Source: Leptospiraceae bacterium (GTDB lineage: Bacteria > Spirochaetota > Leptospiria > Leptospirales > Leptonemataceae). Taken from it: 64,000 nt of DNA. Both the position numbers and the translations under genes were made by a program. The notes under the pieces were generated by a model that had not been told where the DNA came from, made no database searches, and saw only the letters and a list, made by a program, of their open reading frames with translations. This document shows positions 1 through 2,782 of the stretch, piece after piece (within the stretch, counting starts at the first letter, position 1; each line of letters begins with the position of its first letter). The stretch covers positions 1 to 64,000 of the forward strand of contig PBEB01000074.1 in NCBI GenBank assembly GCA_002717505.1. Direction: 5' to 3'.

Positions 1-877
1 GATTCACGGCGGTTTCCTTGCTCAAATCAAAGGTTACCAGCTGATCGCTATTCATGAACTCAAGGGCTGAATCAAACATTCCTCTCCAGACTTGAACCTG
101 AGCTGCCTGGGAGCGATTCTCAAAGTTATCATTCAACAGGTCCAGGAATTGCTCTCTTCGCTTCAGTCTTTCTTCAGTAATTCGCCCTGCAGCCGGAGTC
201 AGATTGTTCACTGGTTTGTCCACGTTCCCAATATGAAAAGAAGAGAAGCGGATGGGCAAAAAGCCGTGACGACCAATAATTCCTCCTCGCTGTCCGAGAG
301 TTACTACCGAGGGAAAATAGGGCCCTTTGTAGTCCTTCTTTTTGCCGTACGCTACCGTACATCCCCAGGATGGGATATCGGGAAATCCGGCGGATTCGGT
401 CATACGATAGCCTGTATTGAGCAGCCTTTGTGCGAATCCATGGTCTCCATCCTCGGACCAGGTTGAGCGGATCATACTCAGATGCTTGAGTTGGGCTGCG
501 GTCCTGCGAAATGGTCCACCAATCTGCACTCCTCGAATGGAGGAGTTTACAGTACTAAATCGGCTCTGATTTCTCCTGGGGTCCAGGGTATCCACATGAC
601 TCATGCCGCCGGCCATGTTAATAAATATTACGCTCTTAATTTTGCTGGGCAGCACAATATCGTAAGGATCCTCATCCCATTCCGGCATTTCCTCTGCATG
701 GAGCCCAGGGTTCAGGCCCAGAGTGCGAGCCAGGGTATCGGCGGCGCCATTGGCCAGTCCCAGGCTGGCGAGAAATCCTGCGGTGCCCCGGAGAAAATGA
801 TTTCGGCTCATGTTTCCGGCGGTGGAGCTGGTCTGCTCCCTGTTTTCGCTCTGAGTCTTTGGATTTGATTCTTTCAT
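1..877 (-). CDS. DUF1501 family protein, 3' end cut by the window edge
   Basis: I translated this by hand from the minus strand; it stays open to base 1, so the C-terminal part lies outside. The start at 877 has a purine-rich GAGGAAA about 8 bases upstream; an internal ATG at 811 is the alternative. After a hydrophobic N-terminal stretch (residues about 26-50) comes the DUF1501 hallmark FINMAGGMSHVDTLDP, a sulfatase/alkaline-phosphatase-like metal-site segment, then STWSEDGDHGFAQ. DUF1501 proteins are exported, usually by Tat. Here the expected twin arginine is replaced by MSRNHFLRG, so the export route is uncertain. It follows the DUF1549/DUF1553 gene by 48 bp on the same strand, the pairing typical of Planctomycetes and Verrucomicrobia. 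The substrate is unknown. Family call is firm; function is not. Confidence 0.88.
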   Translation of the reverse strand, partial: MKESNPKTQSENREQTSSTAGNMSRNHFLRGTAGFLASLGLANGAADTLARTLGLNPGLHAEEMPEWDEDPYDIVLPSKIKSVIFINMAGGMSHVDTLDPRRNQSRFSTVNSSIRGVQIGGPFRRTAAQLKHLSMIRSTWSEDGDHGFAQRLLNTGYRMTESAGFPDIPSWGCTVAYGKKKDYKGPYFPSVVTLGQRGGIIGRHGFLPIRFSSFHIGNVDKPVNNLTPAAGRITEERLKRREQFLDLLNDNFENRSQAAQVQVWRGMFDSALEFMNSDQLVTFDLSKETAVN

Positions 878-925
878 GATGATTTCCTCTTTGTGAGTTC
901 TGCGCGCTGCAACAGTTCCAGCGCT

Positions 926-2782
926 TTAGTTGATATGAATGAATTCCTGACTGTTAAAGATGCTCCAGATCAGATCCTGCAATGCCTCCTGATTAAAGCG
1001 ATCCTTCTTGTTTCCTGACAATTCGGTGGCTGTAAGTCCCTGGATTTGTTGCCACTCTGCATTGCTCATTCTTCGCGAAAGCAGGCTTTGAAAGATTGCA
1101 TTGGCTGCATCTTCTATGCTTCCTTCCTTCTGATAGTATTGATGGATGTAGGATCCTTTCCGGGCGAAGTTCTGGGCCAGGCGATTGGTGAGCCGCCCAT
1201 TCAGCAGGGTTAGAACCTGCTCGATAGTCGGGGCCACTTCATCGTCGGCGATATCGATTCGTGGACCTGCGCCGAAAACAGCCAGAAAGGAATTATAGTG
1301 CACCGGCCTTTCCACTTCTGCCGCATTGGAAAAATCTCTCTGGTTCTGACTGGGCGACTTCAGAGCGCCCAGTCCTTTAAGATTAATCGCGGAAAGGTCC
1401 GGTTTAGATGTTGCCAGAGCAACCTTTCGTTCGCGGATGTCGGAAACGGTCATGGCAAAAGAACCTTTGATCAATGAATTCATCAACTGATCTGGATCCA
1501 TTCTCTGCGCCTGGAAATAGCGAATGGAAGACCCGGCATCCCGAGAATCCTTCTCTGGCATGGATCTGGCGTATGCGCGGGAACTGACAATGTATAGGAC
1601 CAGATCCTTTACTCGATAGTTTTGCTGAACGAATACCTGGTCCAGATGGTTCAGAATCTCTTCGCCCTGGATTTCTGTCTCATCGTTCCAGTCATCCATG
1701 GGAGTGAAAAAGCTCCAGCCCATAAGTCTGGTCCAGACTCGATTGATAAAGACCTTGCGAAATCGATCATTCTTTCGGTCCGTGAACCAGCGTGCCAGAA
1801 TCGCACGACGGTCAACGCCCTCTTGCAGAGTGGCAGCGCTTCCATCCGGATATACAGGTCGCACCAGGTCACCACCGGGTTCATCATCGCTTACAGGAAA
1901 ACGAAGACCCATTTCTGGTACGCGAAATACAGCATCGTACTTGAGGTCGGTTCCCTGACGGTGGGCCTTTTTCTGCTGCTGATTTAGCTTGTTCCAGTAG
2001 TCCCGGTAGAATTTCTGCCACGCATTGTTGTATTGCTTCTGGGCATCTGCAGGCAGGTTTTCGATCTCATTTCTGGGAACATATTTCAGCCCTGTCAGGC
2101 TTTCGAACTTGCGATCATATTGATCGGTGGTGTATTGCTGAGCGAAGAATGCGGCCAGACCATAGTAATCCCGCTTGGTGTAACCTTTGTAGAAGGGATG
2201 ATCATGGCAGCGGGCACATTCCAGTCTTTTGCCGTGAAACAATCGACCGGTGTATTCAGCCAGTTGCAGGGGATCTCCTCCATCTCGCACGATGAAGTTA
2301 ACGGCAGGGTTCTCTTCCGGCGAACCCGATGCAGTGAGCATTTCTGTAACCAGCACATCGTAGGGTTTATTTTGATGTAGCGATTGGCTCAGATAGTTAT
2401 AGAAGCTGGCGTATTTAAGATCTCGCCCTTCTGTCTGTTCGCGAAACAGGGAGCCAAAGTATGTGCCCCAGTACTGGGCAAATTCAGGACTTCGCAGATA
2501 GGCTACAGCATAATTCATCCTGGCCAGTTGTGGATCGGTGGCGGCCGACGAATAGTGATCCAGTTCTTGAATAGAAGGTATTGTTCCTCGAATGTGAAGG
2601 GACAATCGCCGAAGAACAATTCCAGGATCGGCTGGTTTTAAATCGGCATCGGCCAGGTCTTCATATAGCTCATCCAATCGGTCCGGTTGAAGAGGTGCTG
2701 AGGACAGAGAGGAAAAGCTTCCGGCCACGATATGCGAAAGCAAAACTAGAGCCAATACAGAGGTATTCAATATCCGTTTCAT
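926..2782 (-). CDS. DUF1549/DUF1553 (planctomycete cytochrome-associated) exported protein
   Basis: A 618-residue protein with a cleavable signal peptide (about residues 1-27, followed by SSAPLQPDRLDELYEDL). DUF1549 (PSCyt2) occupies roughly residues 40-230 and carries a single haem-binding-type motif C189-A-R-C192-H193 in the family context LECARCHDHPF. DUF1553 (PSD1) follows to the C terminus, with the characteristic RAILARWFTDRKNDRF and FINRVWTRLMGW stretches. In Planctomycetes these proteins are encoded beside DUF1501 proteins and are thought to act in the cell envelope, possibly in carbohydrate or sulfated-polymer breakdown; direct biochemistry is lacking. Here the DUF1501 gene lies immediately downstream, so an operon is likely. 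Many Planctomycete members have an additional N-terminal PSCyt1 haem domain, absent here. Family call is strong, role unknown. Confidence 0.9.
   Translation of the reverse strand: MKRILNTSVLALVLLSHIVAGSFSSLSSAPLQPDRLDELYEDLADADLKPADPGIVLRRLSLHIRGTIPSIQELDHYSSAATDPQLARMNYAVAYLRSPEFAQYWGTYFGSLFREQTEGRDLKYASFYNYLSQSLHQNKPYDVLVTEMLTASGSPEENPAVNFIVRDGGDPLQLAEYTGRLFHGKRLECARCHDHPFYKGYTKRDYYGLAAFFAQQYTTDQYDRKFESLTGLKYVPRNEIENLPADAQKQYNNAWQKFYRDYWNKLNQQQKKAHRQGTDLKYDAVFRVPEMGLRFPVSDDEPGGDLVRPVYPDGSAATLQEGVDRRAILARWFTDRKNDRFRKVFINRVWTRLMGWSFFTPMDDWNDETEIQGEEILNHLDQVFVQQNYRVKDLVLYIVSSRAYARSMPEKDSRDAGSSIRYFQAQRMDPDQLMNSLIKGSFAMTVSDIRERKVALATSKPDLSAINLKGLGALKSPSQNQRDFSNAAEVERPVHYNSFLAVFGAGPRIDIADDEVAPTIEQVLTLLNGRLTNRLAQNFARKGSYIHQYYQKEGSIEDAANAIFQSLLSRRMSNAEWQQIQGLTATELSGNKKDRFNQEALQDLIWSIFNSQEFIHIN

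Follow-up and report, generated by a model that had tools for sequence, protein, structure and literature searches.

A DUF1501 signal without the second arginine in a Leptospiraceae gene pair, and its likely counterpart in class-wide changes of Tat signals and TatC

The twin-arginine translocation (Tat) pathway is named after the pair of arginines in its signals. Here we describe, in a 64,000-nucleotide stretch of DNA from a Leptospiraceae bacterium (the window: positions 1 to 64,000 of contig PBEB01000074.1, hereafter C74, of assembly GCA_002717505.1), a gene pair encoding a DUF1549/DUF1553 protein and a DUF1501 protein, the latter with a Tat-like signal that keeps the first arginine and lacks the second, and we compare it with signals and with the signal receptor TatC throughout the class Leptospiria (the class). 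A natural Tat signal without one arginine was reportedly described by Hinsley in 2001; there, in TtrB, the first arginine is a lysine, whereas here the second is lost. In the available text of a structural study of 2026 (PMC13323110), the first arginine meets Glu15, through water, and Phe94 of TatC, the second arginine forms a salt bridge with Glu103 and is packed against Tyr100; the signal phenylalanine occupies a pocket of Phe94, Leu9, His12 and Leu13. TatC E103A serves there as an inactive control, and R6N in a SufI-signal fusion and E103A in TatC are each described as stopping transport in E. coli (PMC13323110, PMC5539426). The accessible part of PMC5539426 describes Glu103 as showing almost no variation across the three domains, and reports that single-arginine signals of E. 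coli are rescued by added hydrophobicity.

The nearest described signals are those of Leptospira, usually RKxFL in eleven families according to the section on Tat signals of PMC4758666 (2016), and the NCBIfam model TIGR04400 bears the name 'Arg-Lys translocation region protein phosphatase RktP'. These signals and the term 'Arg-Lys translocation' are already known; what we put forward as new is the connection with TatC, the occurrence across the class and the neutral second residues (N, S, G and A); neither these residues nor the loss in the receptor was found in print. As in that section, the second arginine is replaced in several Tat families, usually by lysine, tatA and tatC are present, and the general Tat-signal model TIGR01409 scores poorly; unlike there, the DUF1501 protein of the window has asparagine, and other class copies have serine, glycine or alanine. 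The section is silent on residues of TatC and does not name DUF1501. No mention of a natural loss of Glu103 was found in the portions of the Tat literature at hand (PMC3827258, PMC13323110 and PMC5539426), and literature searches turned up no paper on it by title or opening of the abstract, which is not proof of absence. The gene pair itself is like the planctomycete and verrucomicrobial PSCyt2-PSD1 plus DUF1501 modules, as far as the available part of PMC5615132 describes them, in the gene pair, the CARCH motif and both sets of Pfam domains. It is unlike them in that the class protein is shorter, gives no Big_2 match and belongs to a deep clade of its own, and in that class genomes mostly have one pair each, with two in G004–G006.

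The DUF1501 gene (2–877, minus strand) runs into the end of the contig, so that the window holds its first 292 codons only. The N terminus of the product, NMSRNHFLRGTAGFLASLGL, is the same on C74 and on a second, overlapping contig of the assembly (C57). It contains the Tat-like motif S-R-N-H-F-L (791–808, minus strand), in which the first arginine and the phenylalanine are kept and the second arginine is replaced by asparagine; no RR pair was found at either possible ATG on either contig. The protein is therefore not of the canonical twin-arginine type, as the original prediction from the window had pointed out, nor of the Arg-Lys type; it does have the first arginine, the phenylalanine and a weakly hydrophobic h-region (hydrophobic region of the signal). 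Among the 22 class copies of DUF1501, the columns of the first arginine (R25) and the phenylalanine (F28) are invariant (22/22), and the second-arginine position is occupied by R8 K5 S4 G2 A2 N1; within the genus of the source organism it reads N, K, G, K and S. On a DUF1501 tree computed without the N terminus, at least five changes between arginine and non-arginine are required, and at least ten changes of the residue itself. Outside the class, twin arginines are present in all 76 readable starts from 77 hits (60 read by script, 1 + 15 by eye, some of the sequences being near-identical), a match without a start (L055) being excluded. Fisher's test of 8/22 class against 61/61 outside RR signals gave 1.2e-10, a value that ignores relatedness.

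To see how far the pattern extends, TIGR01409 was run on six genomes and scored above cut-off in three, and two of the proteins found in this way were searched across the class by their mature parts and their starts read. ActB, of alternative complex III, was found in 45 of 48 class genomes; two copies (G007 and G179) were cut and left unread, and the 43 read have the first arginine and the phenylalanine without exception, with K34 R7 A1 S1 at the second position. The source genome's own ActB has lysine there (SRKNFL), and ActB of the genus matches TIGR04519, named by NCBI 'TAT-variant-translocated molybdopterin oxidoreductase'. The 4Fe-4S protein with a long prefix (about 50 residues) named in the Tat section of PMC4758666 fits ActB. 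Outside the class, RR is present in 7/7 ActB sequences read, namely two solved sequences and five of eight plasmid relatives, the set excluding hits H6–H8. The second protein, a lipoprotein amidohydrolase, was read in ten class genomes, its paralogues L309 and L310 being excluded. Over all 75 class signals read, the second arginine is kept in 22 and replaced by lysine in 41. At least one signal without it occurs in 40 of 45 genomes, and a neutral residue in 12 genomes, across DUF1501 and ActB; these counts become 39 and 11 if the amidohydrolase alanine of G009, doubtful because an RR pair sits one place earlier, is counted as RR. The missing second arginine of DUF1501 belongs to a class-wide pattern, and Tat predictors that demand RR would probably miss many Tat substrates of the class (53 of the 75 signals).

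These data bear on the idea that DUF1501 of the class clade is exported by the Sec pathway and that R-x-x-F-L is only a remnant. There is no RR in the window's DUF1501, and in many copies an alanine stands ahead of the mature part in a manner that, by eye, resembles a signal-peptidase site. Yet the arginine and the phenylalanine are invariant in 22/22 copies despite otherwise divergent N termini, and ActB shows the same pattern. Moreover, the best 14-residue Kyte-Doolittle mean of the h-region is 1.30 in single-arginine DUF1501 copies (n = 14), 1.62 in class RR copies (n = 8) and 1.39 in outside RR copies (n = 41), against 2.36 (n = 21) for the Sec-type signals that the partner DUF1549 proteins carry. 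Export of DUF1501 by Sec is thus quite improbable in our estimate.

The signal receptor was then compared, with class TatC sequences aligned to E. coli K-12 TatC, whose numbering is used throughout. TatC was found in 46 of 48 class genomes. Glu103 is present in none of the 46 (T13 V8 I8 A6 L3 F3 S2 Y2 M1), and neither is Tyr100; His12, Glu15 and Arg17 are kept in all 45 readable sequences (one start is cut off), Pro48 is kept in 46/46, and position 94 is F43 Y3. TatC of the source genome, encoded downstream of TatA, aligns gap-free with the solved E. coli TatC in the stretch concerned, where position 103 is Val and position 100 is Ser. Outside the class, TatC was found in 30 of 32 genomes, among them three Spirochaetota of other classes, and has Glu103 in 30/30 and Tyr100 in 21/30. 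Compared with the canonical system and its S-R-R-x-F-L-K signal, the class is alike in the first arginine, the phenylalanine and the weakly hydrophobic h-region of the signal and in His12, Glu15, Phe94 and Pro48 of TatC, and unlike in that its signals may lack the second arginine and its TatC lacks Glu103 and Tyr100. These states of signal and receptor, and their distribution, were read directly from the genomes. Taken together, they indicate that the contact of the second arginine has lost its half-site on TatC and become optional on the signals, whereas that of the first arginine and the phenylalanine is kept on both. The original prediction had raised a perhaps reduced or altered function of the module; the alteration is more aptly understood as a lineage-wide change in Tat signals and TatC.

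We consider it probable that the gene pair is a module old in the class, that TatC of the class lacks the second-arginine half of its site, and that signals are read by one arginine plus the phenylalanine. On this model, the pair would be a periplasmic module of a Sec-exported DUF1549/DUF1553 protein with one c-type haem site and a Tat-exported DUF1501 protein. Class TatC would be without the half-site of Glu103 and Tyr100 and would keep that of His12, Glu15 and Phe94, leaving the second signal position free to vary, with DUF1501 (Asn, Ser, Gly, Ala and Lys) as the extreme case. Single-arginine signals would still use Tat, and the loss of Glu103 may have released the second signal position. 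The uniform state of TatC (46/46) beside mixed signals suggests that Glu103 was lost first and that the signals changed later. We also lean slightly towards the more general form of this model, a class-wide one-arginine Tat system whose Glu103/Tyr100 half-site was lost at the base of the class, after which signals were freed to take neutral residues with no gain in hydrophobicity; on the side of the receptor as well as the signal, it would be a natural parallel to the two transport-blocking mutations of E. coli. A class that has kept half of the contact makes the need for two arginines directly testable by swaps of TatC and signals.

A competing explanation holds that class TatC still reads two basic residues (RR or RK), with a displaced acid or lipid head groups as the contact, lysine being a mild lineage variant and neutral DUF1501 copies being poorly exported or rerouted to Sec. 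Lysine is indeed the commonest second residue (41/75), an acidic residue occurs at positions 98–106 in 22/46 class TatC sequences, and contact of the second arginine with lipid head groups is noted in the available text of PMC13323110. However, the other 24 TatC sequences, that of the source genome included, have no acid at 98–106, neutral residues recur in both DUF1501 and ActB in the 12 (or 11) genomes given above, and the first arginine and the phenylalanine are still invariant in both proteins. We therefore regard two-basic reading as rather unlikely.

Several observations weigh against one-arginine reading. RR is kept in 22/75 class signals in spite of a TatC without Glu103. The query signals for the mature-part searches (ActB of G016 and the amidohydrolase of G000) are RR by selection, since an RR model picked them. 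The outside control for ActB consists of seven sequences only, some of them distant (27–31% identity), and the pattern is weak in the amidohydrolase, with R7 K2 A1 at the second position and the phenylalanine in 8/10. Hydrophobic compensation of single-arginine signals, considered as a candidate, was not seen, the single-arginine mean lying below that of class RR signals. The acid found at 98–106 in 22 class TatC sequences, though absent from that of the source genome, could stand in for Glu103. A stand-in that preserves RR was rejected: RR occurs in 3/27 signals where the genome's TatC has such an acid and in 18/47 where it has none. This rarity of RR beside the acid is predicted neither by a simple stand-in nor by the reading we favour. 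Finally, in 12/30 outside TatC sequences the position of Glu15 is taken by Val (6) or Asp (6), with an acid as the preceding residue, and the outside signals read nevertheless keep the first arginine; a contact residue can thus change while its arginine is retained. The valine sequences are those of loci L241, L246, L251, L252, L255 and L265.

In G024, of family f2, RktP (TIGR04400) lies directly after tatC (L064:2177-3346; 216.7 bits, cut-off 200). In the source genome, the 334-aa frame after tatC (L226:2376-3377) matches neither RktP nor any other family, about 1.5 kb downstream being covered. Just past the stop codon of the source genome's tatC (L196, G000:C64:27800-29600) lies the end of another tatC, one like that of G017, and the core of the encoded TatC resembles, by eye, that of G019 and not those of G017 and G018. 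This looks like either a replacement with a remnant or a mixture of strains in the assembly.

The distribution of the gene pair was examined through its PSCyt2 (DUF1549) domain, which is present in 16/30 genomes of the order, namely 5/5 of the genus, 15/22 of family f1 and 1/8 of a second family, f2. Across the phylum, 24 of 392 sampled genomes carry it. A DUF1501 partner adjoins each of the 21 aligned class DUF1549 proteins (19 genomes). In a scan of named-species genomes, the best 80 of 551 confirmed relatives (79 loci) include nine class members at 41–73% identity, followed by a gap down to 24–29% in Acidobacteriota, Planctomycetota, Verrucomicrobiota and a few others. In a DUF1549 tree of 99 rows, built by a quick method and rooted at the midpoint, a branch of length 1.29 (Shimodaira-Hasegawa-like approximate likelihood-ratio test, SH-aLRT, 100) separates the 22 class rows from the 77 others; of eight rows from other Spirochaetota, seven group together at another place in the tree and L056 is isolated. 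The module is thus old in the class. It may or may not have entered the class by an ancient transfer.

The original prediction had gone further and proposed a likely horizontal acquisition. A recent import from Planctomycetes with reduced function might draw on the sparse occurrence of PSCyt2 in the phylum and on the phyla to which most of the best 80 relatives belong. Against it stand the family-wide presence, the deep clade, the 24–29% identity to relatives outside the class, and the retained CxxCH and family-invariant residues. Recent transfer was accordingly rejected on distribution, identity of relatives and tree, and such an import is hardly credible.

In the phylogeny that the prediction had called for, the two proteins of the pair share one branching order inside the genus; deeper in the class, the placement of G175 (family f3) conflicts with rpoB. 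In both module trees G175 is apart from G200 and G207, whereas in the rpoB tree it joins G200 at 100/100, G207 having given no rpoB. Since the module trees do not simply follow rpoB, exchange of the module within the class, or duplication and loss, is likely. In the rpoB tree, G164 was represented by an incorrect reading frame and has a branch of 10, which makes its placement meaningless; the source genome gave no rpoB match. Family f1 as a single DUF1501 clade was rejected (approximately unbiased test, p-AU 0.011); this was not used as a sign of transfer, because f1 is not united by rpoB either, genus g11 branching separately there at 88/95. Three genomes of one genus, G004, G005 and G006, each have two tandem DUF1549-DUF1501 pairs (L041, L044 and L042, respectively), in which the DUF1501 copies differ in motif, one with SRR or SRK and the other with KRS.

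The two-gene module itself, as originally predicted, was borne out by Pfam matches to both proteins. The window part of DUF1501 matches PF07394 over residues 81–290 (E 4.8e-25) with 89 bits, and the whole protein on C57 with 265.9 bits over model positions 2–389 of 390 (cut-off 27). An AlphaFold model of the DUF1501 protein of a genus relative (L067), with a mean predicted local distance difference test score (pLDDT) of 86.5 and a Foldseek E of 1.7e-7, aligns with PafA (5too) at Z 20.3 and a root-mean-square deviation (rmsd) of 4.5 over 282 residues, and with NPP (7mw8) at Z 20.1 and rmsd 3.2 over 246. The modelled DUF1501 thus has the alkaline phosphatase/sulfatase superfamily fold. A sequence search of DUF1501 against solved structures gave one weak sulfatase row only (1fsu, E 0.028).

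The partner gene (926–2782, minus strand), directly upstream of the DUF1501 gene, encodes a 618-aa protein with DUF1549 (PSCyt2; PF07583, E 3.5e-28) and DUF1553 (PSD1; PF07587, E 3.4e-32) in one chain and a CxxCH motif within PSCyt2. This motif, CARCH (residues 189–193; 2204–2218, minus strand), is a single c-type haem-binding motif; C189, C192 and H193 are invariant columns among the 21 aligned class members, all of which have both domains and the single CxxCH. The N terminus carries a hydrophobic Sec-type signal (2699–2782, minus strand; best 14-residue Kyte-Doolittle mean 2.19) whose end is predicted. Foldseek against the PDB gave no match for the DUF1549/DUF1553 fold at E ≤ 0.001, and the sequence search against solved structures nothing convincing; the best VIA-align hit, a phycobilisome linker (Z 5.3, rmsd 3.7, 80 residues aligned), was not taken as kinship. 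The available part of PMC5615132 ties PSCyt genes to carbohydrate metabolism through neighbouring genes and, in some, carbohydrate-binding modules, a weak lead to the chemistry of the module.

PSCyt1 (PF07635), whose absence beside the pair had been remarked on, gave no match in the source genome; the control genomes gave none either, so the non-match does not establish absence. At E ≤ 0.01, a scan of nine DUF1549/DUF1553 proteins from outside the class gave PSCyt1 in none and Big_2 in six, four of the latter above the curated cut-off. PSCyt1 as the usual state was thus rejected, and among these nine relatives it is not a regular component. Three DUF1549-type proteins of other Spirochaetota (L060, L061 and L062, 3/5 distant rows shown) lack CxxCH and lie beside DUF1501 proteins with RR.

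The source assembly comprises 4.42 Mb in 74 contigs and is 87.9% complete. The left edge of the window is a contig end, as the window begins with base 1 of C74, and on the minus strand the DUF1501 gene follows the DUF1549/DUF1553 gene 48 bases downstream. Contig C57 (L024; 17,792 bases) duplicates window positions 1 to about 1656 in its last 1.65 kb (L024:16137-17792), with identities of 99.0% over 292 aa of DUF1501 and 99.2% over 242 aa of DUF1549. Given these protein differences of about 1%, C57 is the leftward continuation of the window from a slightly different strain, and the overlap is strain variation within the assembly. Past the left edge, C57 thus supplies the complete DUF1501 gene (L024:15610-17013, 467 aa), followed by genes for two TPM-domain proteins.

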